Below, in pieces: positions 10,301-33,239 of a stretch of 57,038 bases of DNA. The stretch is from IMG/VR virus record IMGVR_UViG_3300021197_000748, positions 1 to 57,038 of that record; one strand, given 5' to 3'. The DNA comes from a virus. The notes beneath the pieces are model-generated. The model was not told where the DNA came from. It did no database searches and was given only the letters and a program-made list of their open reading frames with translations. Position 1 is the first letter of the stretch; every line of letters begins with the position of its first letter. Position numbers and translations under genes: made by a program.

Positions 10301-10340
10301 GTTGTACTCCTTAATTTAAAGGACGAACGAGGCGTTAGCC

Positions 10341-11489: not shown

Positions 11490-11507
11490 TACTTCCTCCT
11501 GCATCGT

Positions 11508-11915: not shown

Positions 11916-12535
11916 CGCATAATCCAATCTTTATTAAAGGGCTTGAACCACCATTCTGTGGTGTCTCGCATCTGCCAGCCGTCATTGGTCACACCAATCC
12001 AGCCATCGGTTCCGTGTGCCTCCTGCACCAGGTTAAGCCAAGCGTTGAAGGCTTCCCCGTAGAACCCTGCGTTGTCGAGCACCATAACAAGGTGGCGTTG
12101 AAATTCAGACGTATCACATCCGATATTAGTGGGCGGCGTAGGATCCCAGCTGCAATAGGCAGCATGGAACCAGACCGCACCGTTGTTTGCAATGAGTTGG
12201 TGATCGCCTGCAGCCCACATAATAGCCGCTGCAGACCAAGCACCCACTCTATCTCCCGCGATAGTTACCAATCGAGGATGGGCTTCCATCTTCCAATAGA
12301 GACCCAAACCAGCATAGGCGTCACCGCCGCCGCTGTCAATGGTCAGGAGGATTACACGATTACCAGCCCGCGAGACAAGAAAGTCCCAGAGGTAGAGATC
12401 GATGCGCTCCACAGTACCAGTGTAATGAACGGAGATGGATACACCATCCTCGTCCTTCACCTCGAACCGTCCTGCACTTGCTGAGGAACACAGCGATGCG
12501 ACAAGCACCAGTGCTCCCATAATAAAGTTTCTCAT
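11912..12535 (-). CDS. secreted ClpP/crotonase-fold serine peptidase-like protein
   Basis: The protein has 207 residues from ATG 12535, preceded by AAAAGGATATTACC. A start further upstream would add 28 residues but would spoil a clear signal peptide: MRNFIMGALVLVASLCSSAS followed by A and the mature GRFEV. The mature part has the ClpP/crotonase order. A strand ends in the oxyanion loop DSGGGDAYAGL (67-77). GDRVGAWSAAAIMWAAGD follows, with a Ser at the ClpP nucleophile position (S101). Then comes GAVWFHAAY with His124 at the ClpP histidine position. It resembles periplasmic ClpP-like proteins (COG3904 type). The signal peptide places it in the periplasm or secreted. It overlaps the holin start by four bases, so the two are coupled and probably act in the same late step. 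Substrate unknown; it may prepare the envelope for lysis or DNA release. A catalytically dead binding protein is also possible. Confidence 0.7.
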   Translation of the reverse strand: MRNFIMGALVLVASLCSSASAGRFEVKDEDGVSISVHYTGTVERIDLYLWDFLVSRAGNRVILLTIDSGGGDAYAGLGLYWKMEAHPRLVTIAGDRVGAWSAAAIMWAAGDHQLIANNGAVWFHAAYCSWDPTPPTNIGCDTSEFQRHLVMVLDNAGFYGEAFNAWLNLVQEAHGTDGWIGVTNDGWQMRDTTEWWFKPFNKDWIMR

Positions 12536-12577
12536 GGTAATATCCTTTTCATTTATGTAAACTACTTGTTGTGTTGT

Positions 12578-12617
12578 CATAATAAGGGGACACAGGCCAC
12601 AGCTGACCTGTGCCCCC
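12578..12617 (-). terminator. strong stem-loop separating the fibre island from the lysis genes
   Basis: On the minus strand GGGGCACAGG (12617-12608) pairs with CCTGTGTCCCC (12596-12586), with one bulged base, around a short GC-rich loop, followed by TTATTATG. It is the strongest hairpin in the 246-base gap between the stop of the last spike gene (12782) and the start of the peptidase-like gene (12535). I see no convincing gene in the rest of this gap, only an 18-codon frame without a ribosome site. It could be a terminator or an RNA processing or stability element that separates late-gene dosage. Confidence 0.6.
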
Positions 12618-12781
12618 ACTATGAGAAGTTCCGACGCTGCTGCCCTGGTATAATTGAAGGTTATACGTTAGGCTGCGGCACTGAATTAGGCGTAACATTT
12701 GGCGTTCGCACCACCATCCACGATTTGTGGGATACATTCTAATTACAGCTGCATCTGCAGCAGACGGTCCTAAGGTTCAAA

Positions 12782-15124
12782 TTAATCGGGATCCTTTGGT
12801 AGGTATCCCATTTGAGGTGAAGTATTACTTCTATGAATATCCTTACGATAGCTGCCGAGGCCAGGAGTATATCCTGAACCCGATTGCTCATAAGACCACG
12901 TGCCTGGGAAAGAGCCCTCGACCCCGACTGGAGTATATACCAGCGAGATTCGGTCAGCATCAGTAGCAGGACTAGAGAGTCGTACTACATCCTGTTCATC
13001 GAAAGACGGAACAGAAGAGCCAGAGCCCTGGTCGGCATCGAGACAACTAATCATACGAACGCCGGGAGGCAGCTTGTCAGTCTTGTAAACCATATCAAAG
13101 TTAAGCGGGTAGGTGGGGTCTGGGTTATCCCAGGCAGCACCCGCCGCCTCGCTACGAATAGCCTCAAAGACGCAATTACGTATGATAAAGTTCTTTGCAA
13201 TAAATGCCTGGTTGGGAAGAACAACTTCATTGTCGCCAGGCTTTCCGCTAGGATCAGAACTGTCCCAATGATCTCCTACATCTGCTCCCGGCTTAACCGA
13301 GCGCCAGGGAATGTACTCGTGGTATCTTCCATTAAGCTGATATTCAGAAGTTTGCATCCAAGGTTCCGGTCGCAGCCATTCGACAGCCTCATGAACACTG
13401 CTCAAAGGCTTAGGATGATCGAAGTCAGGACGGAAGACCGTAGACTGATCTAGGATCGTAAGATTCTCAAAGAGAATATGCCTAGCCCATGACGCATGTT
13501 GGGAAACCACAATAATTGTACCCTCGAGGTTCTCAAAGATGCAGTTAACAAATGCTTGGTTACTATGAGCCGAGTCCGTCTTACCGATGAGGATGTTCTG
13601 CACATCTCTATCTTCAGTAGCCTGGAAGCCGAAGTGAATAATATTATTACTCGGACGACCCTGGATCTGGAAGTGGTCACAATGCCACAGGTTTCGATTA
13701 TAAGGACTAGCAGCACTCCAGGTCTGATCGTCTTCAATCGACGCGCCAGTACCCAGAGTAAGCTGCGGGTTCCCTAGCTCGTAGGCTCCCGCTCCTCCGG
13801 GAAGAGATGGATCCCTAGTCGCGGGGTCATCATTAACCAGCTGATTCTGACGGCATGTACAGTCTACGCTAAAGGTAGTCCGCGCCATAGAATCATGAGT
13901 AATCGCTTCCTGATGGGTGTTTCGGACCATGTCCAAACCACAGGCACCGTAACGCACACCGAAGAATGTGGAGTTCTCAACAAAGTTTCCTCCACCATCA
14001 AAGGAGTCATTAGCGCGGATAGGATAGCTCTGGGACGTACGCAGCCAATCGCCACGTACCCAGTTCCACTTACTATCTTCGAATTTACAGTCAGAGAACA
14101 TCCAGATGGTTGCATCCTTTTCTGGGTGCACTCCTGGGTCGGTGTCTTCTGCTACCTCCCCGTACAGCTGACCGATATGCTCAATCATAAAGTGAATACC
14201 GGTGCAGTGGATTCTTCTATGCTGAGGTCGCCAATCAAAGCGCTCAGGGTCTCCTCCAATAGGAGTACCATCCTGAGGCTTCAGCTGTACGCCGACGCCG
14301 TCAGTCTGCTCGCTCCAGCTGAGACCAGGACCTGCTTCAATCTCTAGCGGATGAAGTGGGTTATCTCGCTTAAACGTGATCGGAGCCTCGTACACTCCAA
14401 GGTCGTTTATGATAATCTTCAAACCGGCGCTGCCGATAAGATCTAGATCAGTTGTATCTACGGCCTTTTGAGGATTGCGGTAAGGAGAGCCGATAGTACC
14501 ATCGCCCGTGGTATCGTCCCCGTTAACGGAAACATACTTGATAATTTTATCAGGCTTCGCAGGGAGCATCAGCAATGACTGCAGCCCTGAGCGGTTCGTT
14601 CTGTATCTGTAGGGCTCCGTATCCTCGTTGCCGGTCCACATAGGGGACTGAAGGACAAGAGGGATCCCCGAGCCTACGGGATAAACCCGAGCTCGGAGCT
14701 CTACGTAACCCTTAGCATCTACATTGTTGGCGTCAGTAAGGGTAAGCTTACCCCAATACTCTCGGTTACCGGTGCGAGGGTTGTTAACCAACCCCCGCGC
14801 CGTAACCCAAGTACCACCATTACAGGAGAACTCGACGCGATCAATACCGTTCATATGAAAAGCAATGACCCCGATCTCGTACTCCGTATTCAGCTCCCAC
14901 GTCTTATAGGGCATCTCTGCCCAGCGCGCAATCGCTGTTTCATCGTAGCCAGCGGCTGTGCCGTAGCCAGCGATCTCAGGAGTAACCGCGGTAAAGCCAG
15001 TTCCCACAGGGATCACCGGATGAACCGGATCAATGTCCCAATCACCGACACCAATTTCAATACCGTCAGCAATGACTGACCACATTGATGTGTCGTTAAT
15101 TGTGAATCTATTTTTATTAGTCAT
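12782..15124 (-). CDS. tail spike-like protein, right-handed beta-helix, NRFT-type N-terminus
   Basis: The protein has 780 residues. Start ATG 15124 follows AGGAGAGCTAT. The N-terminus MTNKNRFTINDT matches two other spike genes in this island. About residues 85-160 form a beta-sandwich-like module (GIDRVEFSCNGGTW ... LRARVYPVG) also found in the 1025- and 1477-residue proteins. A pectate-lyase-type opening follows (KYVSVNGDDTTGDGTIGSPY, about 194-213), then repeated short strands typical of parallel beta-helix spikes. It probably binds or degrades a surface polysaccharide; no catalytic residues can be assigned. It is the last gene of the island and has no hairpin in its leader, unlike its relatives. 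Confidence 0.78.
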   Translation of the reverse strand: MTNKNRFTINDTSMWSVIADGIEIGVGDWDIDPVHPVIPVGTGFTAVTPEIAGYGTAAGYDETAIARWAEMPYKTWELNTEYEIGVIAFHMNGIDRVEFSCNGGTWVTARGLVNNPRTGNREYWGKLTLTDANNVDAKGYVELRARVYPVGSGIPLVLQSPMWTGNEDTEPYRYRTNRSGLQSLLMLPAKPDKIIKYVSVNGDDTTGDGTIGSPYRNPQKAVDTTDLDLIGSAGLKIIINDLGVYEAPITFKRDNPLHPLEIEAGPGLSWSEQTDGVGVQLKPQDGTPIGGDPERFDWRPQHRRIHCTGIHFMIEHIGQLYGEVAEDTDPGVHPEKDATIWMFSDCKFEDSKWNWVRGDWLRTSQSYPIRANDSFDGGGNFVENSTFFGVRYGACGLDMVRNTHQEAITHDSMARTTFSVDCTCRQNQLVNDDPATRDPSLPGGAGAYELGNPQLTLGTGASIEDDQTWSAASPYNRNLWHCDHFQIQGRPSNNIIHFGFQATEDRDVQNILIGKTDSAHSNQAFVNCIFENLEGTIIVVSQHASWARHILFENLTILDQSTVFRPDFDHPKPLSSVHEAVEWLRPEPWMQTSEYQLNGRYHEYIPWRSVKPGADVGDHWDSSDPSGKPGDNEVVLPNQAFIAKNFIIRNCVFEAIRSEAAGAAWDNPDPTYPLNFDMVYKTDKLPPGVRMISCLDADQGSGSSVPSFDEQDVVRLSSPATDADRISLVYTPVGVEGSFPGTWSYEQSGSGYTPGLGSYRKDIHRSNTSPQMGYLPKDPD

Positions 15125-15137
15125 ATAGCTCTCCTAC

Positions 15138-17930
15138 TTAGCTGTAGTTAGACCAGCCGCTGATGTCACCTGGGTCTTGCGAAAGACCCACGACAACCAG
15201 GGTATCACCAGCGGTCGGAACCGTGCCGCCCAGAGTATACTGCTGAATCTGACCGGAGTCGGTCTGCCACGCATGCGTAGTCCACACACCAGTAGTAGCA
15301 TTCCAGACAGCGATGTACGGGACATCTGTCTCGTAGGCTGCGGTTACAGTCCCACTAAGATCTCGAACCTGAACCGCACTAGTAACTCGTAGTTGTGAAA
15401 TATCAAAGAGCTGACCGGTAGGAGTCATAGTCACTCCAGTTACCCAAGTACTGCCGTTGGAGACGATCGAACTCGTCTCGGCAATGGCGTAGGTATCCCA
15501 GTCATCGGCCACGCCCGGAGGAGCCATCTTAAAGCTAAACAGAGAGATACCTCGTCCGTTAACCAAACCAGAAGGCGCAAACCAACCGAAGTTGTTCCCG
15601 TGATCGGTCACAAGACTGCCGTCAAAACTTTGGTCACAGAACTGAGTTCCTGTATCATCATCGCCAACCCAGCCTTCCAGCGTGTAGTCCACCCCGTCGT
15701 AAGTAAGACGAAGGAACATGTGAGCTTCGGGATTCGCGGCAAGATCGCCGGGGAACATATCGAAAGTCTGATTGCTTTCTGAATTATTAGTATACATCGT
15801 AATAGCGGATGTATTAGTACCGGCCTTAGGGGCAATACCAATCACCGTATAATCACCGTCGGCTCGATCTCCACCATTGATAATAAAACCAAAGACTGCG
15901 CCAAGAGACGACTGCGCACCACGGGCAGCCTTACCTTCCATTACCCAGCCACCAGACGGGGGCGTGCCCAAGTCCGTGACAAAGGAGTCTTGCCATGTGG
16001 CATCGCCGATAACACTCTTAGAGATGTGTGTATCTAAATACCAACCATTACTGCTTGAGGAAGACTGCAGAGCCCACGTAGGTCCGCTAGTGTCCTGTAC
16101 GCCGTAGTTCTCAAAGACACGCCCACCGGATACCCCAAAATCGGTAGTAGTACTATTGTCAATAACCCCTGAGGCAGTCGCCATCGAAGTAAAATCGATA
16201 TCAAAGTACGGAACCTCAGGAGCTGGTTCAGGCCGCGAGGCAATAGCACCGGTCGAGAGATCAATTACATACTGATGGAACTCAGCAGCGGTTACTACCG
16301 TGCCTTCCCCGTCGGTCATAGACCCTACGGGATCTCCACCGGCTCCAACAATCAGACCAGCCTTGTGCATATCATACAGCACCTGCTTAAGAGTAAGCCA
16401 GTTAATATCCATAAAGGGCTGAACCTCTGTCTGATTGCCCCAACGTACGGTACAATGTACCTCGGTATCCGAACCAAACTGATCAGCACTTCCCGTTACA
16501 GCGGGGTTACCAATAGTAGCAGACGTAGCATTATCGCTAGCATCAGCATTAAACACCGTGAGATTCTTTTGGATGTTGAGAGCATTACCATTAGAGTCAA
16601 GTCCACTGTAGCCAATCACCGTACCGAACAAACCAAGACAGGCGCTAGTGGTATAGATACCCGCGTTGTCTCCTTTGTACATTTCAGTGGTAGCATTAAA
16701 ACCGGCCATAGGGATAGACTCAACCATGGGGCTAAACCCTAGTCCCGTGAAAACATTCGTCAAACGAGCGCTGCCCGGACGGGCGGCAATAGCGTTCTGA
16801 CCCGTACCTTCACGTACCATACCCTCGGAATTAAACCAAAGCCTTGCTCCGGTATCGAGGCCAATTTCATTAAAGCCCATGGAATACAGCCCAGCCGCCT
16901 CAACATCCCACCAGCCCTCAAACTTTTCGTTAGAGCTCGAGATGCCGGGGTTATTAGCATCAACGTAATCAAAACCAGGCTGGGGGTTATAAGAAGGATT
17001 ATTTCCACCTGCGTCCGGATCCCAGCCGTCGATATCACTAGGCGAAGACGTTCCGAGAAACGTGCGATCGTAGGTTGCCATATCGTTATTAGTATAATTA
17101 GGTCGATACCCGGAGTAAGATTGAATCTTGGGTGGTCCCGGTGCTGGGCCAACTCTAGCAGCAATGCGATCTTTAATCGCCGTGATTGCTGTAGTCCAAG
17201 CAGCTTCGGAGTCACCAATAGTACCATCTATGCCGTTAGGCGTGAAGGGGCTAGTAGTAGTTCCAGTACTAAAGTTACCAACCCAGGGCGCTGTGGACTG
17301 CGACAGACTACTATAGGGATTAGCTGGATATTCAGGGGCATAACCCCCGCTTCCGTTGTTCTGGTTGATGTAGCCAGCTGGGTTCCAGATTCCAACCCTG
17401 TCAAACCCAGCATCAATCGCCGGGTAGATCTTATTTTCTGTCCAAAGCAATCGCCCATTGGTTTGTGAATCAGTCATATCATTACCCGCTGCAGGGGTTT
17501 TACGATATTGCGTTTGGGGAACACCCCACGCTTCACCGTCTGAAACTCCGCCAGGGGCATTATTTGTAGCCGGGCCGTCAGTGCTTGTGGAAGTAGCAAA
17601 TCCAGAAACAAGCATTGGTCGTCGATCGGCCTGGAAAGTGATGCCAACGAACTCCACGTTAGTTCCCGACCAGGACGTAATGTCCGCGGGAGTGGTAAAG
17701 CCCGCATCGGAGTAAGCCTCGATGTCGTAGAGCTTACCCTGCTCCATCGAATCGTAATCAGTGATAGGATTCTCGGAGTCTCCGGTCTCGAAGACCTTGA
17801 GGTAAAGAGCACCGCCGGAAGCCGTGGTGAACGTAGCCATAAAAGCTGGGTCTTGACCCGCAGTTGCGGCGGTCAAGGTGAACGTCACGTTCTCGCCCGC
17901 AGGCGTAGTAAATGTAAGTGAATTAGCCAT
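15138..17930 (-). CDS. large virion surface protein, possible glycan-active enzyme
   Basis: The protein has 930 residues. ATG 17930 sits in the shared leader (ACAAGGAGAGCC). The N-terminus (MANSLTFTTPAGENVTFTLT) differs from the NRFT proteins and looks like an immunoglobulin-like domain. Residues about 90-470 contain strand-helix units with DAGFDRVGIWNPAGY, LYSMGFNEIGLDTGARLW and SPMVESIPMAGFN. The acidic strand ends and their spacing suggest a TIM-barrel glycoside hydrolase, but I cannot name a family. Around 590-780 lies a lectin/LamG-like beta-sandwich (YFDIDFTSMATASG ... FLRLTYDGVDYTLEGWVG). The phrase DDWDTY near residue 795 recurs in the 1477-residue protein. It is probably a depolymerase or adhesin carried on the tail. 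Confidence 0.6.
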   Translation of the reverse strand: MANSLTFTTPAGENVTFTLTAATAGQDPAFMATFTTASGGALYLKVFETGDSENPITDYDSMEQGKLYDIEAYSDAGFTTPADITSWSGTNVEFVGITFQADRRPMLVSGFATSTSTDGPATNNAPGGVSDGEAWGVPQTQYRKTPAAGNDMTDSQTNGRLLWTENKIYPAIDAGFDRVGIWNPAGYINQNNGSGGYAPEYPANPYSSLSQSTAPWVGNFSTGTTTSPFTPNGIDGTIGDSEAAWTTAITAIKDRIAARVGPAPGPPKIQSYSGYRPNYTNNDMATYDRTFLGTSSPSDIDGWDPDAGGNNPSYNPQPGFDYVDANNPGISSSNEKFEGWWDVEAAGLYSMGFNEIGLDTGARLWFNSEGMVREGTGQNAIAARPGSARLTNVFTGLGFSPMVESIPMAGFNATTEMYKGDNAGIYTTSACLGLFGTVIGYSGLDSNGNALNIQKNLTVFNADASDNATSATIGNPAVTGSADQFGSDTEVHCTVRWGNQTEVQPFMDINWLTLKQVLYDMHKAGLIVGAGGDPVGSMTDGEGTVVTAAEFHQYVIDLSTGAIASRPEPAPEVPYFDIDFTSMATASGVIDNSTTTDFGVSGGRVFENYGVQDTSGPTWALQSSSSSNGWYLDTHISKSVIGDATWQDSFVTDLGTPPSGGWVMEGKAARGAQSSLGAVFGFIINGGDRADGDYTVIGIAPKAGTNTSAITMYTNNSESNQTFDMFPGDLAANPEAHMFLRLTYDGVDYTLEGWVGDDDTGTQFCDQSFDGSLVTDHGNNFGWFAPSGLVNGRGISLFSFKMAPPGVADDWDTYAIAETSSIVSNGSTWVTGVTMTPTGQLFDISQLRVTSAVQVRDLSGTVTAAYETDVPYIAVWNATTGVWTTHAWQTDSGQIQQYTLGGTVPTAGDTLVVVGLSQDPGDISGWSNYS

Positions 17931-17959
17931 TCGGCTCTCCTTGTAAAAGTTAAGTAAAG

Positions 17960-17990
17960 TCCCTGCTGCCCCGCTAAGAGCAGCAAGGGA
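17960..17990 (-). terminator. intergenic hairpin of the repeated fibre-island cassette
   Basis: On the minus strand TCCCTTGCTGC pairs with GCAGCAGGGA (one bulged T) around an 8-10 base loop, then ACTTTACTTAACTTTTAC and the ribosome site of the next gene. The same order of hairpin, A/T-rich leader and ACAAGGAGA occurs before three other genes of the island. The tail of T residues is interrupted, so RNA processing or mRNA stabilisation is as likely as termination. Confidence 0.5.
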
Positions 17991-18001
17991 AGTGTTGGTT
18001 A

Positions 18002-20029
18002 TCAGCTAGGGGGAGTATTGTCTCCACCCCAGGCAGTGCTGTACGAAGTTGCTCTTGGCAGCGTCTGAGGAATGTGCGTATCAGTCCAATCGACCGTGAT
18101 GTTTTCCAGCTCGGCCTGAGTAGGAATACTTGACCAACGTACACCAATAGAACCTCCATCGGCTGCTGCCGTCGTGGCAACGCCCTGAGTGGTAAGAGTC
18201 AACCGATCAAATACATCCGAAGTTGTATTAAAGAACGGAAGGTCGGTAGAACCCCAAGAGGTAGTGCCGATTGCACTCCCGTTGATAGGAAGGAACAAGT
18301 TTGCAAATCGCTTAGAAGGTCCACCGAGACCGTTGTCGCTCTCAAAAGCAGTCATCATTCGACCAGCTACGTTTGACTCCAAGGTAAGCGAGGAGTTTAT
18401 AAGGTTGCTCATAATCGCACTAAATGATGTTGAGATACTGCCCGTAAGAATAGTATCATCAGCAAACAGAGTGTTATGTCGGAACTCCACTAGCTGAGAG
18501 GCGTTAAGCACCGTGTCCACACCGCCGTTAAATGCAAGAACTGTCTGACCGTTTAGAACCTCATTGTTAGGCTGTACGGTTGCGTTAGTTACGATAAGGT
18601 TATTATTAAACTTCATCGAACCTGTAGTCGTATGAGGATCACTATTGTAAGGCTGAAAGGACATAGCCCGTGCGCAGTTGAAGAAGATGCAGTTCTCGAC
18701 CGTGGCGTTAATCCAGGAATCTTGGTACAGAGAGATACCCTGACCGTGACCTGTGGTTGGAAGACTGAAGTAACATCCGCTAATAAGTGAGGGCTCGATA
18801 ACGGTCGTCCCGACCTGGTCACCCATATTACTAATAGCCGATTTATTCTCCATGCCTCTAAACGTACTGTTTACAATACGACATCCGGGTCCTGTGATAA
18901 TAGCCGAGGATTCCAGCCGATAAAAGGTACATCGCTCTACGTCGTTAGCCGTTCCATAGCACGCATACTTACCAAAGCTAAAGCTGCAGTTCTTAAGGGT
19001 ACTCTTACGAGTGCCGTCAGTACGAGCCGACAGCAGACTGGCGTTGTAGGTTCCCTGAGAGCCTCCGATGAAGGTAGTCCCGTAAAACTGAATGTCCGCC
19101 AGACCGCCACTAGAGACCTCAAAGATATGAGGCCGAAGCGGCATTGCGGCAGACTGCGGTACCCCATTAACGGGGTTGTAGTAAATCTTCCCGTTATTGA
19201 TATCGATAGAGTACTCACCGGGCGCTAGATCCTGACCACCATACATGCAGAAGGACAGGTAGCCATTATAAGTAATACCAAAGTCCTCCGCAAAGGTCAT
19301 AACACCGGTGTTTGAATCCCAGGCTGTAGGTATCCTGAACGCAGTCACGTTAGGTCCAGCGTGGATGTTAATACCAACGGAAGAAATACCTACCGCATTT
19401 ACGCGGGCAGTGATCTCATTTCTAAGGGTCGGGTCTGTCACAGTAAATCCGGTGATTAGCTCGCCCTGCGCGTCGTCTCCGCCATCCGTTTGGGCAGTAC
19501 CGTTGTTGATCCCGTTAGACGTCGAGTTGACCTTAAGCCAGTTGCTGTTCACGGAAAATCGATTATTTCCATAACCAGAAGGGACTGCCGGGTAAACCTT
19601 CAATGCTGGAGCATCGTCTTGGTCGGCATCTACTAGATAGTTTCTCATGTCGTCGAGCCAACTCAGGTTAATATCCGAGCTATATACCCCGCCGCCTAGA
19701 TCTGTCCAAGAGGACAAAGCCTTTGCTGCGGTGAGGTATCCTCCAACCACGATCAGATCCTTATTATTGTTAGTTGGAAATGGATCGGTATTGTCTTCAG
19801 GCTCGAAGCCTTGTCCACGAAGATCCAGGGATCCCCCGTCGGGCGTAGCGTCTAGAAGTGTCTGCAAGCTAGACCACGTTCCCATAGTTGCGGGTCGCGC
19901 TTCGCCGACACCGTTCGGTCCAGTCCCTTGGTCAGGGATACCACCTTGGATCTGCACGCTATCGTTCTCAGTCGCAGCCTCAATAGACCAGACGAGATCG
20001 GAGGTAGTAAATCGATTTCTATAAGCCAT
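18002..20029 (-). CDS. tail spike-like beta-helix protein, NRFT-type N-terminus
   Basis: The protein has 675 residues. Start ATG 20029 lies in the shared leader (ACAAGGAGAGCCAC). It begins MAYRNRFTTSDLVWSIEAAT, a variant of the conserved N-terminal peptide. From about residue 280 it is a series of short turns and strands typical of right-handed parallel beta-helix spikes (STLKNCSFSFGKYACYG, NDVERCTFYRL, RIVNSTFRG, ATVENCIFFNC). Asn and Cys ladders stack in such helices. A short C-terminal region (about 600-675) may be the trimerisation cap. It likely recognises or cleaves cell-surface glycan; catalytic residues are not recognisable. The stop is followed by the island hairpin. Confidence 0.78.
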   Translation of the reverse strand: MAYRNRFTTSDLVWSIEAATENDSVQIQGGIPDQGTGPNGVGEARPATMGTWSSLQTLLDATPDGGSLDLRGQGFEPEDNTDPFPTNNNKDLIVVGGYLTAAKALSSWTDLGGGVYSSDINLSWLDDMRNYLVDADQDDAPALKVYPAVPSGYGNNRFSVNSNWLKVNSTSNGINNGTAQTDGGDDAQGELITGFTVTDPTLRNEITARVNAVGISSVGINIHAGPNVTAFRIPTAWDSNTGVMTFAEDFGITYNGYLSFCMYGGQDLAPGEYSIDINNGKIYYNPVNGVPQSAAMPLRPHIFEVSSGGLADIQFYGTTFIGGSQGTYNASLLSARTDGTRKSTLKNCSFSFGKYACYGTANDVERCTFYRLESSAIITGPGCRIVNSTFRGMENKSAISNMGDQVGTTVIEPSLISGCYFSLPTTGHGQGISLYQDSWINATVENCIFFNCARAMSFQPYNSDPHTTTGSMKFNNNLIVTNATVQPNNEVLNGQTVLAFNGGVDTVLNASQLVEFRHNTLFADDTILTGSISTSFSAIMSNLINSSLTLESNVAGRMMTAFESDNGLGGPSKRFANLFLPINGSAIGTTSWGSTDLPFFNTTSDVFDRLTLTTQGVATTAAADGGSIGVRWSSIPTQAELENITVDWTDTHIPQTLPRATSYSTAWGGDNTPPS

Positions 20030-20058
20030 GTGGCTCTCCTTGTAAAGTTAAGTAAAGT

Positions 20059-20087
20059 CCCCGCCTCTCCGGTAAGAGAAGCGAGGG
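20059..20087 (-). terminator. intergenic hairpin of the repeated fibre-island cassette
   Basis: CCCTCGCTTCTC and GAGAGGCGGGG (minus strand) form an 11-bp stem with two G-U pairs around TTACCG, starting a few bases after the TAA of the 1025-residue gene. It is followed by ACTTTACTTAACTTTAC and AAGGAG of the next gene. The helix is maintained while its sequence differs from the sister hairpins, which suggests the RNA structure itself is selected. Confidence 0.55.
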
Positions 20088-20092
20088 AAGGG

Positions 20093-23000
20093 TTAAGATG
20101 ATTTAATAAGACCGAAGGGAATAGCCTCTGTAACACCGTCTGCCGTAAGAAAGCAAGTCAAGGACTTACCCACGTCCTCAGCCTGAACAGTATAGCTAGA
20201 GGCTGTACTTACCACCGTACTTCCAAGCATCCACTTGTAAGATCTCGGGGCAGCATCGTTTTCTAGTAGTTCTCCTTCATACTCAAGAGCAACTACGTCA
20301 GTAGGAACCTTTCGAGTTGCGTTATTTGATGCAGGGGGAATACGAAAGCGATTAAAGGGAAGCAATGTGGTAATGGTTTCATTGCCAGTGCTTCCCGTTT
20401 CAATTGCATCAATAGGATGAGGCAACGAGTTGGCAGTTCGAGGGTTACCCTTAATATCATAAGGAAGAACCGAACCGAGATCCAGAGTAACTGGGTCGCT
20501 TACAAGTGATGTATGCAGCAGTCCTCCGTCTTCGATAGCCCCATACTTAGAAACGCCCCATTCCTTATTACCTGAATTAGAAACGTAGTTAGCCACCATA
20601 GTATTACTAGCGGCGGGGACTACGTTAGGGTTACCGAGCCAGGTCGTACTAAAAGTACCAACTGTACCCAGAGCCGAGTCCTTGAACTGAACGTCAAAAG
20701 CGCCAGGAGGGCTGGAGCTGTTTGAAGTACCATCAGTCTGCGAAATCGAGGAGCCTTCAATATGGAGATGGATATCCTCCGCATCTGCTTCTCGCGTTCC
20801 TGTACTCATGTTCACCCAGTTATCCATGTTTGTTCCCTTGATACCAAGCCGCATAGGAGCTGGCTTCTCAATCTTGAAGAGAGTATCAGCCCTGACATCC
20901 TTAGGATCCAAGAACAAAGCATTAGAGAAGACGCAGTCCGAAACTGCGCCGCTCGCTTGGAACAGGAACTGCTGTTCCATGACTGAAGTGTAGTCGTGAA
21001 ATAGCGTATTGTTCATTGTGGCGGGTGAGTTGGATGTTTGTACCCCATCCTGGTGAGCCCAGAATATTGGGCAGACTCGATCGCCTGCTTGCATATCCAT
21101 GGTAAGGATGTTGTCAATAAACGCTTGAGCGAGAAGACCGTTGGCAGGGGTGTCCGTCACTGGGTTTAAACCACCCGAGCTATAGTACGCCGCGACAGTA
21201 TCTGTGTTAATATCAAGACCTTCGGCGGCAAACAATGGAGCACCGTCTGGGTTGTCATACCGAGCAGGGCTGTACATTCGCATGTATGGTAGGGCCGGAT
21301 CGAGCGGGTCGACGCCTTCTCCAATAGGAAAGGACGGCCTGCTGTTAGACCAAGACATTAGGGCCTTTCCGTTGCCATCAATAACTCGGTTACCAACAGT
21401 AGCGGGGTATGGGTTTCTTCCCCAGTCAGCATCGTCAACATACGTAAGACAGGCCGAAGATGAGACATACGACTTGGCAGCAAACGTCCTGCCAGCTGGG
21501 GTCAGAGGCTGACCGCTCTTCCACACAAAGAAATCAAAGTCGTAAAAGCGAGTACCGGCGGTGCAGTCGCCGTAAGTGCCGTCAATGTCTGAGCTCTGCT
21601 TATATCTAGCAGGCCATGTCGTAGGGGGCGTAACAAGATATGCGCGCCACTCTAGGATGTTCTTACCAGCATTAATTACATCAGTATCAGTAGCGTAAAA
21701 CGTACCGTCCTCAGCTACCCACGTAATCCGACTGATTTCGCAAGTACCGCGCGCGATGCTATCGTTACCAACGGAGTCAGCATAGTCGTAATAGTACTTA
21801 CCATTTACATCAATTCCTCCAGTACTGAGACCAAAGCCGTTCGATACATAGCGTTCGGTATCGAGGTCAGTCCCTGAGGCATTAGGCCCATAGGAGGTAA
21901 TGTGTCGGAAGTTGTTTACGCCAGCCTCAGCTGCGGTCGTTAGGAAGTAAAGCGTATCCCACCAAATAGCACCATCGCAATTAAAGATGGAGCTTGGGCC
22001 GCCGCAGACGATTGTATTGATGAAGGTATTATAGAGTCCTACATTAAGACGAGCGTTAGCATCCGAGCCTCTAAACAACGTCTGCTCGTATGGGTTCTTA
22101 GTGGAGGCTCCTGGGTCATCCGCCTGGTCTGACCTAATAGCCGGGTTCTGGCGTCCAGTAGGCGACTTGCCATAACTCATGCTCGAATCTTTAATAGTAC
22201 ATTCATTAAAGACCAGAGGAATAAAACCCTCAGATCCAAGAGTAAAGGCCAAATTGTTATACATATCAAGCGTGATATTTTCAAACAGAATAGGATCCCC
22301 GTTACGCAGAGAACAAGTAGTCCACGTAGGATCAAAACTGTCTGCATCCTCCTCGGTAGTACCTGGGAAGTCACTCGATAAGATAATAGTCACATCATTC
22401 TTGTCCCCCGTCGACGACCTAATTCTCCGGTAACCCGCAGTAAGAGGATCCGTTGAGTCTAGAGCAGGGAAGGTAGAAACACTTTGAATCGTATATAGCC
22501 CAGGGGTAAGAACAAAATCAATCGCCTTATACTGGGTACTGTTATCTTGGTTGTACCTACAGATGTTCGAGTGAAGGTTAGGTGAGTACAAGGTACCATC
22601 AGGCTCCACATAGTCAATTCTTGTGTTCTTAGTTAGGTCAAGGTCTGCAGCGTTAAGATTAACCGTGTGAATCTTCGTAGCATCTTCCATGACTCGAATC
22701 GTCCGTGAGACAACACGAGCAGGAATAACCGATGGGGATCGTGGGATAGCCTCGGCGTACAGAGTACGATCTTCGTAGTCCGTAGGGGCTGTATTAGAGT
22801 TGTCAATGCGAACCCAGTATCCCTGTACCTTTGTTCCATCGGGCATAATGCGCTGAGTAATCTCAGTGACAGTTTGTGCCGAAGAACCACCGTAGTAGAA
22901 GTTTACCTGTTCAATGCCAGTAGAGTCGTAAGTATCCGCAGAAGCGCAGGCATACAGTGCATCGTCGTCTGCCACGTAGAATGTTTCAGCAAGGAACAGA

Positions 23001-23170
23001 TGTACAATCGTAGCTTGCTCATCTTCAGTAAGCGTAGGGGAAGACTTAGTATAGTTAGCATCCCCATTCCAGACTACAGCGCTTACAGGCGCTGAGACAC
23101 CAATAGTCTCTCCATTGGCACTTACCTGCCAAAACGTATCTGTAATAGTAAATCTATTTTTATTAGCCAT
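20093..23170 (-). CDS. large tail spike-like protein, NRFT-type N-terminus
   Basis: The protein has 1025 residues from ATG 23170 in the shared leader. The N-terminus MANKNRFTITDTFWQVSANG is the best copy of the island's conserved peptide. Residues about 85-165 contain the beta-sandwich module (GIEQVNFYYGG ... LYAEAIPRSPSVIPARVV) shared with the 780- and 1477-residue proteins. The centre (about 170-900) is strand-rich with Asn/Gly turns, compatible with a beta-helix or beta-propeller. The last 80 residues form an immunoglobulin-like domain (YKWMLGSTVVSTASSYTVQA then EDVGKSLTCFLTADG) of the kind common in surface adhesins. Probable receptor-binding protein or depolymerase; no enzymatic motif seen. 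Confidence 0.75.
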   Translation of the reverse strand: MANKNRFTITDTFWQVSANGETIGVSAPVSAVVWNGDANYTKSSPTLTEDEQATIVHLFLAETFYVADDDALYACASADTYDSTGIEQVNFYYGGSSAQTVTEITQRIMPDGTKVQGYWVRIDNSNTAPTDYEDRTLYAEAIPRSPSVIPARVVSRTIRVMEDATKIHTVNLNAADLDLTKNTRIDYVEPDGTLYSPNLHSNICRYNQDNSTQYKAIDFVLTPGLYTIQSVSTFPALDSTDPLTAGYRRIRSSTGDKNDVTIILSSDFPGTTEEDADSFDPTWTTCSLRNGDPILFENITLDMYNNLAFTLGSEGFIPLVFNECTIKDSSMSYGKSPTGRQNPAIRSDQADDPGASTKNPYEQTLFRGSDANARLNVGLYNTFINTIVCGGPSSIFNCDGAIWWDTLYFLTTAAEAGVNNFRHITSYGPNASGTDLDTERYVSNGFGLSTGGIDVNGKYYYDYADSVGNDSIARGTCEISRITWVAEDGTFYATDTDVINAGKNILEWRAYLVTPPTTWPARYKQSSDIDGTYGDCTAGTRFYDFDFFVWKSGQPLTPAGRTFAAKSYVSSSACLTYVDDADWGRNPYPATVGNRVIDGNGKALMSWSNSRPSFPIGEGVDPLDPALPYMRMYSPARYDNPDGAPLFAAEGLDINTDTVAAYYSSGGLNPVTDTPANGLLAQAFIDNILTMDMQAGDRVCPIFWAHQDGVQTSNSPATMNNTLFHDYTSVMEQQFLFQASGAVSDCVFSNALFLDPKDVRADTLFKIEKPAPMRLGIKGTNMDNWVNMSTGTREADAEDIHLHIEGSSISQTDGTSNSSSPPGAFDVQFKDSALGTVGTFSTTWLGNPNVVPAASNTMVANYVSNSGNKEWGVSKYGAIEDGGLLHTSLVSDPVTLDLGSVLPYDIKGNPRTANSLPHPIDAIETGSTGNETITTLLPFNRFRIPPASNNATRKVPTDVVALEYEGELLENDAAPRSYKWMLGSTVVSTASSYTVQAEDVGKSLTCFLTADGVTEAIPFGLIKSS

Positions 23171-23199
23171 GTGGCTCTCCTTGTAAAGTTAAGTAAAAG

Positions 23200-23227
23200 C
23201 TCCGCCTCCCCGGTAGGGGAGACGAAG
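23200..23227 (-). terminator. intergenic hairpin of the repeated fibre-island cassette
   Basis: CTTCGTCTCCCC pairs over 12 positions with GGGGAGGCGGAG (minus strand, G-U pairs allowed) around a TACC tetraloop, followed by CTTTTACTTAACTTTACAAG. It is the most stable of the set and lies between the stop of the 1477-residue gene and the start of the 1025-residue gene. Confidence 0.55.
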
Positions 23228-23239
23228 ATTAGAGGTTAA

Positions 23240-26200
23240 TTACGGGAATAGTACTGTGGGCTCAGTCCATCCATCGGTACCACCGTTGCCGGTAGCTCCG
23301 GTGTAGTCAGACAAATATACAACACCAATACTGTAGACGTCGGAGTTGTTCCAGAGACCGCCGTTAGTTCCGTCAGAGCCGCCCGTAGGCCACGCATGCG
23401 GGACCCAGTTGCTGTGGCCGTTTGCACCAGGATTCTCGTCGACCTTCGGTCCGAAGACGTACCAGCCTGCGTTATCTGCATGTCCAAACGCACCAGCTGC
23501 AGCTTCTTCAGCCGTGATGTAGATGCCCATGTATTCAGGCATCTTGTCTCGGTTAGCTGAGGTCGCGAAATAGCTTCTGGTGTTGTTCGTGTATCCGCTG
23601 AAGGTGTTCAATGCTACTTCGGTGTTTGCATCCAGAGGGAAGTTAGCGTCAAAGGTAGGGTTCAACTGACCGCTGCCATATCCGGGAGCCGTACCAGCAC
23701 CGAGCTGATACGTATCCCAGTCATCAGCCGAAGAAGGAGAAACAAAGTCCTCCCAGACACTAACGTCACCGTCGTACTGCGTAAGAGCAATGACACCCAT
23801 GTCGTTTACTACATAAGAACCTGACGACGGGAAGGAATATCCATCGACAAGTACATAGCGATTGCCAGAGCTGGTTACACCATTCCACTCAAGGATAGAC
23901 CATCCAAGCCCGTCAACCCAAGTTGCAAGGTATGCAGGGTATTGACTTGGATCGTTTGGCGGCCAGTTACCACCGTTGACACGAAGTCTCAAGTTTCCAC
24001 TCGAACTGTCTACCTGAGTAATCTCGAAGTAGGTTGTTGGCGCGGTTGTGGTAACCATAGTCGAAGAAGTGGAAGGCGGAGTACCATAATACTCACCATC
24101 TGCGTAAGTAGTGTAATCTACCGGAGGAACATTACTATATAGCAGGTTATTTAGATTGTACGTATTCCAAGAAGGAATCACCGTAGATACTGCATCAATA
24201 GCAATTGTCTCGTCATCAAACTCCTGACCGTTGGTAACAAGTCCGCTAGAGAACTGGACCGTAGACTGAGCAACACCAGGCTGAATAGCTCCGGTGTCCT
24301 TGTCCATGTCTTCACCAAACCACCAGAACGAATTCTTCCGAGTAAAGCTATAGGTATCGCTATCGTCCTTAGAACTATTCCTTGCAGACGGCGTAGTAAC
24401 GCTATCAATATGAACATTATGCGTCACAAGATCCAAAGCCGCTGGCGTCGAAGGTGGAACATATCCAGGAGCCAAAGCTGCTGGGTCGTTTAGGTCACTC
24501 GACCAAGAGCCTGCGGTAAAGCCGTACTGTCCCAGAATAGTGTTATTAATCACAATATCCTTAAAGACGCAATCAAAGACGCGGCAAGGTCTGTCACCAC
24601 CAGCAACATCAATGACGTTATTATTAGAAATAAACACACCCTGTGATGCGTTCAGGCCCTGATAATCTTCCGTTCCCAGGTATCGGTAGATAACACCGTT
24701 ACCTAGTACCGCTATCTGGATCTGCGTGAAGTCCTTATGGACATCGTGGAGAGGGTCACTCTCCGGGATAGCGCCAAAGTCAAAGTCTGAGGCACTATTA
24801 GAAATATCATTTGCGTTAGGAACACAAACCACTGAGAGATCAACGCCCTGCGGCTTGCCCGTAGAGGCATCTACGGTATATGACGTCTCGGCATAGAACG
24901 AATTCAATACACCATTGTTGTAATCCTGAAGAATTTGCTGATCACTTGCCTTGTTAAAGTAAGCGATGGACCCAATGGGCCACACAAACTCAGCAACATT
25001 CTTAACCGTAGCGTTAACACACAGGCCACGGGCATTCATACAATCACGAGTAAGACCATTCTCAACCGTGCAGTTTACGGACTCGTTAATAGAAAGTCCC
25101 CAGTCGGCCCATTCTGCTGTGCAGTTAAACATACAAAGAGCTGCACCACCGCCCGCAGAGTTATCAGAGGGAACAAACGTACCCAAAGCACTCTGACCAT
25201 TTACAGGCGTCGTGTTAGGGTCCATAAAGTGAGCGGCAGCAGCCGCTGCGTTATCGTCAGTAATATAACCAGTTCGACAATTTTCAATCTGGAAATAGCT
25301 ACTGTAGTTAGGATCCTTCATTTGCCAGAGGTAACTAGGGTCGGTAGTTTCTGTGGTAATCGTAAGATTATCAAAGATCGTACCCGTAATTTTTCCGGTG
25401 GCTCCTGAGGTACCAGTCGATTGGATAGTCTGATCCTGAGTAGTACCAATTAGCTTGCCGGGAAGAATTACATCACTGCCGGAATAACCACGCGGCCATA
25501 CTCCAACTGATCCGTTAGTAGAATCAGCGGGGTACTGAGGAAGACCATCCGGGGCACTACCTCCGAGAAGATACCTAGTACCCGCGAATGAGGTACCCAT
25601 GAGATAAACCTTCATGTTACGGAAGTATAGCTCCCCACTTGCCCCGACGATGCTGAACATCGTCTCCTTAGGTGTAGATGAACTAAGCCCATCATTGGCA
25701 TCACTTCCATTGACCGGATCTAAGTAGTATTGCTTAGTCCAGCGGCACAGGTTCACACCTCGGTTATTGAATTCTTCCGCGTGAGCTACCAATTCTGCGG
25801 TAGTAGGTGTACCCTCTATTCGGCCGTTGTTTGATTCAAACTCTGGCCCTTGAAGAATACGAGTCTTTCCAAGTGTCGGGTAAACAACGGCTCGAACCTC
25901 AAAGCCCCGCGAATCAGTCGTAATATCTGTGGGGTTAAAGGGGCACACGTAGACTTCGTTGCCTTCAGCATCAATAGTAGTTGATGTCACTGAATAGGCG
26001 GGACCATCGTTAATATAGAAATCAACGCGCTCAACGCCATTTCGAGTATACGTGTTGTTTTCGGTGTCAATCGCTGAAACACCACCAGCGTAAGCAAAGA
26101 CGCTTACAGAGCTTTCGTTTTCTACGTCAGTAAACAAAGGACTAATAAAGCGAGCAATCACTCGCTCGTCGTACATACGTTCATTAGGATCGGATCCCTG

Positions 26201-27673
26201 CTGTTCAGTAATAGTACCACCGTCGCCGGTAAAGGCGAGGGGAGTCCAGTCTGCAGGCGCGGTAGATCCCACCTCAGCAAGGATAGTAGGACCAACCCAC
26301 GTAACCGTAGCATCAATCAGTACACCCTTATCAGTATAAGCATAAGCATACAGCTGAGTATTCGCCGGGGGATTATTGGTCACCTCAGTACCTGAAGGAC
26401 CGATGCCCGTAAAGAGCCTAATCTCAGCAACATCTGCGGACGGAGGAGGCTCAACAATAATGACCGGAGGTGCAGCGTCTTGAGTGCTCTGGTAAAGCTG
26501 ACCATTGAACGCCTGAATAGCAGTGACCTCGCAGGTATAAGTACCCGGATCACCGTTGAAGTTATAGAAGGCATCTGCGTTGTTCTGAACCGTAGCATTA
26601 TTCTTCATAAACTCATTTTGATAGATCAAGCTACCGCCCTGACCGGTTCCGGTGGACTGGAAGCTAGCGTCAAACGTAGGAGTAACCTGAATGGTCTGTC
26701 CCACAGTGGATTCAAACAATCCCGGATCGCTAGTCCACGTCCAGATCTGTCCAATAACGCCGGTAGCTTCGGAGCTAGTGATCCCGGTGGAAGTGCTATC
26801 GAGATAGAAGAGCTCGACTTCACAGCGAAGCCGAAGACCTGCGTAGCTTTCGGGAGGGGTATACGAGCTAGAAGAACCAGTCTGCCGCTCAGTCCAGTTA
26901 AGACCGCCATCAGAGCTAGTCGACCACGTATACACCGTATTGACGGGGATACGAGAATCAAGACCATCAACGGTGAAGTCAGCTTCGTACGCAACACCAA
27001 CCAAGGGTGTCTGCTTAGGGAAGCTGAGGTTTTCGTTGGTCAGTGCCGGGATAACCTCGGCGGGCAAGCTGATCGCATTCGGCAAAGGCTTATCAGTACG
27101 AACCTCAAAGCTGTAGCTAGTATCGTACCGCGCCGGGACCACAATGGTCTGCAGCGGATCGGCAAGCAGAAGCTGTTCCGTAACATTCCCAACAACAAGT
27201 AGGTCTTGCTGCATCGAGTTCGTGGTACCAGCCCACAGATCCTTGTTAAAGTTACGAAGTGTACCGATGAACTCACCGTTCTGGATCTTCTGAGACATGA
27301 GGTTATCCCCATCCTCGTCGATCTGCCCGAGGCCATCCTGCACCAGTTCGCTGATCATAAACTCGAGGCCGTCCTGCGTAGCACCCGCGTGGATAAAGCA
27401 TCCAACGAGAGCACCAAGAGCGGTGGCCTGCGAGGGGAAACGACCGACAAGATTATACTGATTGATAATCAAGGTCCAGTCGTCTCCGGCATCGTTCGCG
27501 ATAACAGAGAACGAGTTCACAGCGCGGAGGTCACCTCGATGAGAAGCGATACCCGCAGTGGAAAGCTCCACCGGATATTCCGATGTTGCGTTTACAATAA
27601 GGTTGTCGGTACCGTCAAGAAGGTAGTTACCTGCACCATCCTTGAGGTATTGAAATACTAAGAGTCTGTCCAT
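23240..27673 (-). CDS. giant multidomain tail fibre/spike protein
   Basis: The protein has 1477 residues. Start ATG 27673 (MDRLLVFQYLKDGAGNYLLD) is preferred because ACAAGGAGATCCATA precedes it; the open frame extends 105 codons further up, but there it overlaps the previous gene in another frame. The first 40 residues look like a fibre attachment segment. Several immunoglobulin-like domains follow between about 220 and 440 (VYTWSTSSDGGLNWTERQTG; GTYTCEVTAI). The shared GVERVDFYIN ... EVRAVVYPTLGK module is near 575-650. The pectate-lyase-type opening YYLDPVNGSDANDGLSSSTP (about 680-700) leads into a beta-helix. The C-terminal part is Ser/Thr/Gly-rich and holds a DDWDTY phrase. The largest protein of the fibre island, most likely a long adhesin. 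Confidence 0.75.
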   Translation of the reverse strand: MDRLLVFQYLKDGAGNYLLDGTDNLIVNATSEYPVELSTAGIASHRGDLRAVNSFSVIANDAGDDWTLIINQYNLVGRFPSQATALGALVGCFIHAGATQDGLEFMISELVQDGLGQIDEDGDNLMSQKIQNGEFIGTLRNFNKDLWAGTTNSMQQDLLVVGNVTEQLLLADPLQTIVVPARYDTSYSFEVRTDKPLPNAISLPAEVIPALTNENLSFPKQTPLVGVAYEADFTVDGLDSRIPVNTVYTWSTSSDGGLNWTERQTGSSSSYTPPESYAGLRLRCEVELFYLDSTSTGITSSEATGVIGQIWTWTSDPGLFESTVGQTIQVTPTFDASFQSTGTGQGGSLIYQNEFMKNNATVQNNADAFYNFNGDPGTYTCEVTAIQAFNGQLYQSTQDAAPPVIIVEPPPSADVAEIRLFTGIGPSGTEVTNNPPANTQLYAYAYTDKGVLIDATVTWVGPTILAEVGSTAPADWTPLAFTGDGGTITEQQGSDPNERMYDERVIARFISPLFTDVENESSVSVFAYAGGVSAIDTENNTYTRNGVERVDFYINDGPAYSVTSTTIDAEGNEVYVCPFNPTDITTDSRGFEVRAVVYPTLGKTRILQGPEFESNNGRIEGTPTTAELVAHAEEFNNRGVNLCRWTKQYYLDPVNGSDANDGLSSSTPKETMFSIVGASGELYFRNMKVYLMGTSFAGTRYLLGGSAPDGLPQYPADSTNGSVGVWPRGYSGSDVILPGKLIGTTQDQTIQSTGTSGATGKITGTIFDNLTITTETTDPSYLWQMKDPNYSSYFQIENCRTGYITDDNAAAAAAHFMDPNTTPVNGQSALGTFVPSDNSAGGGAALCMFNCTAEWADWGLSINESVNCTVENGLTRDCMNARGLCVNATVKNVAEFVWPIGSIAYFNKASDQQILQDYNNGVLNSFYAETSYTVDASTGKPQGVDLSVVCVPNANDISNSASDFDFGAIPESDPLHDVHKDFTQIQIAVLGNGVIYRYLGTEDYQGLNASQGVFISNNNVIDVAGGDRPCRVFDCVFKDIVINNTILGQYGFTAGSWSSDLNDPAALAPGYVPPSTPAALDLVTHNVHIDSVTTPSARNSSKDDSDTYSFTRKNSFWWFGEDMDKDTGAIQPGVAQSTVQFSSGLVTNGQEFDDETIAIDAVSTVIPSWNTYNLNNLLYSNVPPVDYTTYADGEYYGTPPSTSSTMVTTTAPTTYFEITQVDSSSGNLRLRVNGGNWPPNDPSQYPAYLATWVDGLGWSILEWNGVTSSGNRYVLVDGYSFPSSGSYVVNDMGVIALTQYDGDVSVWEDFVSPSSADDWDTYQLGAGTAPGYGSGQLNPTFDANFPLDANTEVALNTFSGYTNNTRSYFATSANRDKMPEYMGIYITAEEAAAGAFGHADNAGWYVFGPKVDENPGANGHSNWVPHAWPTGGSDGTNGGLWNNSDVYSIGVVYLSDYTGATGNGGTDGWTEPTVLFP

Positions 27674-27708
27674 TATGGATCTCCTTGTAGAATTAATAAA
27701 GTAAAAGA

Positions 27709-27734: not shown

Positions 27735-27761
27735 CCGGTCGTCAGCTCGTGCTGAGAAGTG

Positions 27762-31192: not shown

Positions 31193-33211
31193 TCAACCAG
31201 CGCCAAGGCCGGGGAGGTCAAGTACAGGGGGATCAGGCATAGTGCCGGGAGCAGGTCCAGGAGTTCCATTCTCAAGAGCCGCGATACGATCGTTAAGGTT
31301 CGTGAGGAACGGGGTCAGATCATTAATAAGATAATCGTCAAGCGCCTCAATAGCGGTAAACGAATCATCGCTAAGATCCTTAAGCTCTGCAGCAGCCTTG
31401 GTCAGAAGACCTGTCATCGAAAGAGTCTCAAGGGTCTGCGTAGCAGTCGTAGCAGCGGTGCCGCTAGAAGCATCGGTTTCATCCGTGGCTTCTTCAGTAG
31501 GACCAGCAGGCAGCTGGTTATCAACGCCCTTCGCAATGTCCAGACCGACAGCCGCGAGATCCTGAGTAGTGGGACCGTAGTGGTACACACCAGGATTATC
31601 CTTATACTCCCAAGCACCGAGAGTCGAGAGGCTCTGAACCTTGTCGATAACCGAACCGGAAGGATCCTGTCCAGGGACGTAGTCCTTGATAGTCGCATCA
31701 GAGCCTTCGGTCACAGTACCGTCGACCGTAAGGTTACCGCGGAAGTAGGCATTGCCGTCATTGTCGATTTTAGCAATATTCGTTTTCGTCCCGCTAATAA
31801 GCTTCGTAGCAGAGAAGACCTCTCCGCCAATGTCGCCTGGGGACATAACATAGGTATATGTATTTGCATCATCTCGCCACATACTGCGGTTCGAGTGATC
31901 GTTAATGACATAATGATTTTGATAGCTGTCACCTCGGTTCCAGTTCAGTACACGAGAGTAATTCTCACCGGAACTAGACTGCGTAGCACGGGGATCAATA
32001 AGAATCGCCCCGTCTTGACGCCAGGTGGACGTATCAGTGAAGTCGTTACCAGCCTGATAGAACCACTCATAGCCAGAGGCGTTGGTGTTACGGATAACAC
32101 TGCCATCCTGGTTTCGAGTAACGTATGAACCACCGCCGGTGTCAGTACCGGGGATGTTCAGCTGAACGTTGTTGTAAGTACCATTGGTGGTATTGTCGAA
32201 CGTAAGGTTCGGCGGGGTTGCGTCTCCGTTGTCGAGCACATACTTGACAGCTGAGATATCACCAGTAGCTGAGATATCGCCAGTCGCTGAGATATCACCA
32301 CCGCCTTGTTGGGGATGAGACACTGTGGAAATATCACCAGTGAACGTAGTGGTAGGCACACCTCCAGGCTGGTCGTAGTCTTGCTTCTGGGTTACCGACT
32401 CTACAGCGCTTACGCGGCTACCAAGATTGGCATTCTCCGCGAACAGCGGTGCAACGACCTCACCCTGGATATCAAACCATTCGGTGTCACCGTTGGCCGC
32501 ACTTGCCTTGGCAAGCACGAACCCGTCCGCTCCGCCAGTCGGCACAAGGCTTCCGCCTGCGCCAATGACGATATTCGTTCCATCATACTCGAGAATACCG
32601 TTGCCAGCTGGGATGCTGACGTTGCCAATGTCCCAGAGGACGTTACCCGAGAGATCGAGAGGTCCGGTGTTTCCGCCACCACTACCACTACTAGAGGAGC
32701 CACCGCCAGAGAAGGCAGAGAGTTCCTGAGAGGCGTGCAGCAGCTGGGTCGCGCTCGCGTTCAGCATGCCTGACGTAAGTCGAGCGCCCGGCGCAAACGT
32801 GACAACCGCGGAGTTAATATCAGTTGATCGTCGAATAACGATCGGTGTACTCGAGGAGGCGTCAGCCACCTGAGGCCGGTAGTAGATCGTACTTACGCCG
32901 GGAATACTAATCGCAGTATCACCAAGAGGCGAGACCGTGACGGTGTTCTGATCAGTGTCAACAGAGTACAGAGTGCCAGGCAGGACAATAATCGCCTCCT
33001 GAATCTTAGGAGTCAGGCTGGAAACCTCAACCGACGTGCCGCCACCGCCCTGGGTATTATCAGCATACACGATCGTAGGGTTGAATCGAATCTCAACCTG
33101 GCTAGCTTCCGGAAGACTGTCCGAAAGAGGCATGCCACTGTAGCTATAGACGGAGCCATTAGCGTTAGTGACATAGGTGATTTGAATATTCGTTGAATCA
33201 AAAGTGGCCAT
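31193..33211 (-). CDS. tail fibre protein, gp17-type N-terminus with S74-like C-terminal chaperone
   Basis: The protein has 672 residues. ATG 33211 follows AAGGAGCCTACA. The first about 160 residues match the T7 gp17 N-terminal domain that docks on the tail tube: strands ending in an arginine-rich strand (PIVIRRSTDINSAVVTFAPG) and LTSGMLNASATQLLHASQEL, like IELRR and LNVAQIQTMHVAEEA in T7. After a Gly/Ser linker comes a beta-rich shaft with a GDISAT tandem repeat. The last 169 residues resemble peptidase S74 intramolecular chaperones: SDATIK gives Ser504 and Lys509 at the Ser/Lys spacing of endosialidases, followed by a Leu-rich coiled coil (LNDRIAALENG). The chaperone would fold the trimer and be cleaved off. 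It is probably the primary fibre to which the following proteins attach. Confidence 0.85.
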   Translation of the reverse strand: MATFDSTNIQITYVTNANGSVYSYSGMPLSDSLPEASQVEIRFNPTIVYADNTQGGGGTSVEVSSLTPKIQEAIIVLPGTLYSVDTDQNTVTVSPLGDTAISIPGVSTIYYRPQVADASSSTPIVIRRSTDINSAVVTFAPGARLTSGMLNASATQLLHASQELSAFSGGGSSSSGSGGGNTGPLDLSGNVLWDIGNVSIPAGNGILEYDGTNIVIGAGGSLVPTGGADGFVLAKASAANGDTEWFDIQGEVVAPLFAENANLGSRVSAVESVTQKQDYDQPGGVPTTTFTGDISTVSHPQQGGGDISATGDISATGDISAVKYVLDNGDATPPNLTFDNTTNGTYNNVQLNIPGTDTGGGSYVTRNQDGSVIRNTNASGYEWFYQAGNDFTDTSTWRQDGAILIDPRATQSSSGENYSRVLNWNRGDSYQNHYVINDHSNRSMWRDDANTYTYVMSPGDIGGEVFSATKLISGTKTNIAKIDNDGNAYFRGNLTVDGTVTEGSDATIKDYVPGQDPSGSVIDKVQSLSTLGAWEYKDNPGVYHYGPTTQDLAAVGLDIAKGVDNQLPAGPTEEATDETDASSGTAATTATQTLETLSMTGLLTKAAAELKDLSDDSFTAIEALDDYLINDLTPFLTNLNDRIAALENGTPGPAPGTMPDPPVLDLPGLGAG
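32250..32301 (-). repeat. 18-base tandem repeat encoding GDISAT units in the fibre shaft
   Basis: About 2.8 copies of an 18-base unit (plus-strand consensus gctgagatatcaccagta) lie inside the 672-residue fibre gene and encode GDISAT-GDISAT-GDISAV. Unit length equals a multiple of three, so copy number can change without frameshift. Such repeats lengthen or shorten a fibre shaft and are prone to slippage. Confidence 0.75.
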
Positions 33212-33239
33212 TGTAGGCTCCTTATGTTAGATGTTAAAG

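Follow-up and report, generated by a model that had tools for sequence, protein, structure and literature searches.

The window analysed here is the whole of an IMG/VR virus record, 57,038 bases in length, and its proteins are named by their length in residues (p780 and so on). The sequence identifies the source as an uncultured T7-like (autographiviral) phage; the terminase, capsid, nozzle and RNA polymerase showed 20-40% identity to autographivirus proteins. The late genes were located on the minus strand in the order portal, scaffold, capsid, tube, nozzle, p672, p951, p187, p1477, p1025, p675, p930, p780, ClpP-like protein, lysis-type genes and terminase. The genes of interest in this region were as follows:

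31193..33211, minus strand: p672, a fibre with a T7 gp17-like N-terminal anchor
23240..27673, minus strand: p1477, a candidate anchored platform with a putative docking role
20093..23170, minus strand: p1025, a tagged spike with a full-length counterpart in the related phage G001
18002..20029, minus strand: p675, a tagged spike with a probable β-helix body from about residue 48 in the structure model
15138..17930, minus strand: p930, N-terminus MANSLTFTTPAG, without the tag, 5' cassette present, homologue of G001 g711
12782..15124, minus strand: p780, a tagged spike with an Ig-like region and a weak match to PHROG 4577 "tail protein"

The N-terminal tag of three spike proteins

A six-frame analysis of the window revealed that NRFT was present at the N-terminus of exactly three proteins, all on the minus strand: MTNKNRFTINDT (p780), MAYRNRFTTSDL (p675) and MANKNRFTITDT (p1025). 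The tags themselves were located at:

23087..23170, minus strand: p1025 tag, residues 1-28, MANKNRFTITDTFWQVSANGETIGVSAP
19946..20029, minus strand: p675 tag, residues 1-28, MAYRNRFTTSDLVWSIEAATENDSVQIQ, the most divergent copy
15041..15124, minus strand: p780 tag, residues 1-28, MTNKNRFTINDTSMWSVIADGIEIGVGD

The consensus of the tag extended over about 27 residues, M-x-[NY]-[KR]-NRFT-x-x-D-x-W-[SQ]-[VI]-x-A-[DN]-G-x-x-I-G, of which A-[DN]-G-x-x-I-G was lost in p675. A shuffle test of the first 35 residues gave a z of 12.3 for the pair p780/p1025 (0/2000), 8.5 for p675/p1025 (0/2000) and 5.8 for p780/p675 (2/2000), and the other five tail-region proteins showed no convincing pairing in the same test. 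A weak N-terminal likeness between p675 and p951 (29/2000) was rejected, 28 comparisons having been made. The likeness of the tags ended at about residue 27, and none was found between the tagged window proteins over residues 29-200 (z of -0.2 for p1025/p780 and 0.8 for p1025/p675). The initial annotation had described three proteins with a common NRFT start of about 12 residues and diverging bodies. Both the sharing and the divergence were confirmed statistically, but the shared part was longer than supposed, since it also included W14 and the A-[DN]-G-x-x-I-G segment. The similar DNA that it had noted around two of the starts was found at p780 and p1025 (ATGrCTAATAAAAATAGATT), and a larger likeness was located upstream of p1025, p675 and p930.

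Codon usage within the tag was also compared. In 8 of the 9 cross-comparisons of residues 10-28, no fewer than half of the residues that two paralogues had in common were encoded by different codons, and in the ninth this was the case for 3/8. The different codons behind the shared residues showed that the tag is conserved as a peptide, beyond any copying of its DNA. No homologues of the spikes were found among 50,697 phage records, and a search with the N-terminus of p1025 returned one match, with an E value of 5. The weak tail-protein match of p780 was the only one obtained for the tagged spikes with PHROG and Pfam, and searches of solved structures with the spike proteins and their profiles returned nothing useful.

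Leader cassettes and intergenic hairpins

The genes p1025, p675 and p930 were each preceded by a 5' cassette, which consisted of a 12-bp hairpin (12 pairs with a four-base loop), a leader of the form TTTACTTAACTTT(T)ACAAGGAGAGCC with the Shine-Dalgarno sequence, and ATGGCT:

23200..23227, minus strand: p1025 cassette hairpin, 12-bp, about 30 nt upstream of the start codon
23171..23199, minus strand: p1025 leader, CTTTTACTTAACTTTACAAGGAGAGCCAC, with Shine-Dalgarno sequence
20059..20086, minus strand: p675 cassette hairpin, 12-bp
20030..20058, minus strand: p675 leader, ACTTTACTTAACTTTACAAGGAGAGCCAC, where the block in common with G001 has its downstream seam
17961..17988, minus strand: p930 cassette hairpin, 12-bp
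17931..17960, minus strand: p930 leader, with Shine-Dalgarno sequence

The folding energies of the five cassette hairpins in the window and G001 were between -19 and -22 kcal/mol. Covariation was analysed in an alignment of four copies, three from the window and one from G001, from which one T of the p930 leader run, outside the stem, was removed by hand to keep the register. Four pairs were doubly changed and 100% of the cells were paired, a result matched in 2/500 shuffles for an alignment of four sequences only. The window and G001 copies of the p1025 hairpin differed by one missing base on each side of the loop, which corresponded to a whole pair.

Similar hairpins also preceded p672, p1477, the tube gene and the terminase, so the hairpin is a feature of the late operon, in which the three cassette copies have a similar sequence. 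Hairpins with a perfect stem and a four-base loop were observed in the late operon at 36902-36931, 33238-33269, 27707-27736, 23200-23227, 20059-20086, 17961-17988 and 10321-10350. Nine strong stems were found on the minus strand, seven of them intergenic, compared with 0-2 per strand in mononucleotide shuffles. The late-operon hairpins look like weak intrinsic terminators, and they may serve as terminators, processing sites or stabilisers. No match was found in Rfam, and a literature search on hairpins or boundary sequences at the seams of spike genes found nothing on point.

A second tagged phage and the spread of the tag

When the three tags were combined into a profile, a single record matched, IMGVR_UViG_3300001419_000005 (G001), in which two tagged proteins were recovered with E values of 1.8e-21 and 1e-10. 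The core proteins of the two phages were 33-66% identical (nozzle 34%, RNA polymerase 33% and major capsid protein 53%). The spike p1025 was more alike than these, with 90% identity to its G001 counterpart over 1,025 residues, and lay in a shared block:

20004..23239, minus strand: block 93.7% identical to G001 27842-31080

The block began at the hairpin upstream of p1025, continued through the next cassette and ended about 10 nt past the next start codon. The gene entered at this end differed between the phages: p675 in the window, and in G001 g711, which is p930-like. The sequence signature of whole-spike-gene exchange with breakpoints at similar 5' ends was present, for one exchanged gene. 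A second recently shared block, which contained the ClpP-like and lysis-type genes, showed 84.8% DNA identity with G001. At 11244-12640, the ClpP-like protein (Pfam Clp protease just below the cut-off) was accompanied by a 139-residue protein 94% identical to that of G001. The other tagged protein of G001, g701, resembled p675 in its body (residues 29-200, z 14.2; 32% identity across the alignment), and its tag scored 76-82 with p780 and p1025 and 42 with p675. This discordance suggests either a re-pairing of tag and body or a faster change of the p675 tag. The p930 protein was 45% identical to g711 over about 570 residues, and neither had a match in Pfam or in phage records. By eye, stretches of p930 and g711 resembled a glycoside-hydrolase barrel.

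These data bear on the origin of the tag, which might chiefly be a relic: gene 5' ends would have been duplicated or recombined recently, with the cassette and first codons copied as DNA, and the peptide would have no dedicated binding role. Such an origin would account for the DNA of p1025 and p675, which was almost identical across the leader and the first codons, for the coincidence of cassettes and seams, and for the presence of the cassette without the tag in p930. However, most shared residues at positions 10-28 were encoded differently in most comparisons. The tag was also retained without the hairpin cassette in p780 and g701, so the two elements are separable, and p930 and g711 retained the cassette without the tag, which showed that they were not simply hitch-hiking. 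A relic is thus considered unlikely.

The spread of the tag was examined with a terminase profile, which recovered 38 lineage loci at 53-76%. With G001 as the positive control, the tag profile found nothing in the lineage DNA beyond G001, and no tag was found in 19 other lineage records, a set with many partial records and without a positive control. The 80 terminase-related loci obtained from a broad profile did not contain the tag. A degenerate DNA scan of viral contigs for the tag start yielded one match, an unrelated internal NSFT, and further degenerate scans of viral and genome contigs yielded short, internal or unrelated ORFs only. In a cassette scan of viral contigs, only G001 was relevant. 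The search in related phages proposed by the initial annotation therefore succeeded in G001 but not in the 19 other records, and two tagged phages are known. Among the relatives whose fibre region is sequenced, the closest was G002 (terminase 75% identical), which contained the nozzle, a p672-like fibre, proteins of 239 and 275 residues and the lysis-type genes in this order, and no tagged spikes; its 239- and 275-residue proteins aligned with the N-terminal module of p1477. Since the tag was not found in the 19 other lineage records and G002 was without tagged spikes, gene content indicates that the tagged spikes are accessory in this lineage. The patchy spread of the tag itself fits an accessory spike set and an unrelated role equally well.

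Proposed docking of the tagged spikes

The presence of the tag on different bodies, its conservation as protein, its occurrence in a second phage and its apparent re-sorting are what a docking tag predicts. From these sequence patterns and by analogy with known phages, the tag is probably the common attachment plug of accessory, exchangeable tail spikes whose genes are swapped at the repeated cassettes. In each spike, the tag would precede a body that differs from spike to spike, is probably trimeric and binds a receptor or acts as an enzyme, and the tag would dock the spike onto one shared tail site, most likely p1477/g628. Because every spike would keep the same plug and the same hairpin-leader-Shine-Dalgarno cassette recurs at three spike-region genes (two of them tagged), exchange of entire spike genes would be possible. 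We infer from the seam positions that recombination in the repeated cassette could lead to the gain or swapping of whole spike genes, and new pairings of body and tag could arise just beyond the tag. More tentatively, the covarying 12-bp leader hairpin and the tag might together form a standard "socket and plug", a portable cassette with which spike genes move between distant T7-like phages as self-contained units with alike seams and dock on one shared virion platform.

In the Klebsiella KP32-type podoviruses, the conserved N-terminal peptide of the second receptor-binding protein (RBP) docks on the branching domain of the anchored first RBP, and conserved peptides down to 7 residues, which differ per phage group, were modelled as docks of second RBPs (PMC6872550, PMC13082707). 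The phage studied here is similarly T7-like, with downstream spike genes that share a short N-terminal peptide on unrelated bodies and an anchored fibre with a gp17-like N-terminus (p672). However, its peptide is unrelated in sequence, three tagged spikes are found in one phage and no T4gp10-family domain was detected; docking is suggested here by analogy. The tailspikes of K1E, K1-5 and SP6, as summarised in PMC6872550, have N-terminal peptides of 7 and 11 residues on an adaptor and likewise use short N-terminal peptides as the common part of different spikes. According to the same summary, the two spikes of K1-5 use different peptides on a dedicated adaptor, whereas one peptide is shared here and no adaptor homologue was identified. 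In the Ackermannviridae, it was proposed that genes can be exchanged through the similar 5' ends of the tsp genes, and entire tsp genes were shown to be exchanged (PMC11414711). The TSP1-4 system resembles the present one in having several spikes with genes alike at the 5' end, but it is of the myovirus type, with N-terminal XD domains where the present spikes have a 27-residue peptide, and the hairpin-leader cassette is not reported in the part of that article drawn on here (PMC11414711). By analogy, the tag system is best read as a case of the known arrangement in which exchangeable accessory spikes are attached through a docking peptide, as in KP32, K1-5 and the Ackermannviridae.

The profile of p672 matched depolymerases at 1e-7 and T7 gp17 at 4e-4, and its sequence characterises it as the gp17-like anchor fibre, the anchored first RBP. 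The C-terminal region of p672 aligned with the Peptidase_S74 chaperone region of its G002 homologue (2.8e-6 for the G002 match), with the window copy below detection. The N-terminal module of p1477 was common across the lineage, a segment at about residues 412-460 was strongly shared with G001 g628, and p1477/g628 was directly upstream of p1025 in both tagged phages. Because it was found in both tagged phages, was absent or short in G002, adjoined p1025 and contained the shared segment, p1477/g628 is the first candidate for the dock, and the p672 fibre or another tagged spike is less likely. The nozzle, the fibre and the 187-residue protein, which had been proposed earlier as partners, were not favoured over p1477 by gene content. 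PF07880, the T4gp10 N-terminal family, gave no match in the window, G001 or G002, although this model covers only the N-terminal region of gp9/gp10 and the sequence search may miss a docking domain. The AlphaFold model of p675 had a mean pLDDT of 30 with a strand-rich pattern, and that of the p780 N-terminus had a pLDDT of 47 with a low-confidence β-hairpin at residues 14-26; the low confidence is probably due to the small number of relatives. The docking role first proposed for the tag thus agreed with the sequence pattern, while PF07880 was not detected and the models were uninformative.

The position of the tag shortly before the predicted start of the p675 β-helix (a low-confidence model pattern) and the weak β-hairpin in the p780 model could also be explained by a function within each spike, in which the tag would cap the body at its N-terminus or help it to trimerise. 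This appears improbable, since the bodies were unrelated in sequence and one cap would have to suit several different bodies, and p930 and p1477 of the same gene set were without the tag. It is very unlikely that the likeness serves translation through an A-rich start (ATGGCTAATAAAAATAGATT) that keeps the ribosome-binding site open and favours similar first codons. The A-rich starts right behind a strong Shine-Dalgarno sequence, with a hairpin in two of the three, would agree with this, but the likeness reached residue 27 with differing codons and p930 had the same leader with a different peptide.

If the tag is an attachment plug, it would allow exchangeable spikes to be recognised in an uncultured T7-like lineage from the sequence alone, and p1025 would be a natural example of the transfer of an entire spike gene between distant phages, with its seams mapped. 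The plug-and-play model of phage receptor-binding proteins would also become testable beyond enterobacterial phages. Residues 60-166 of p780, the Ig-like region, matched the upstream protein p1477. The corresponding DNA was located at 25631-26191 (p1477) and 14450-14962 (p780), with a BLAST E value of 8e-5, and on this sequence likeness the region is possibly a second module exchanged among the spike genes.
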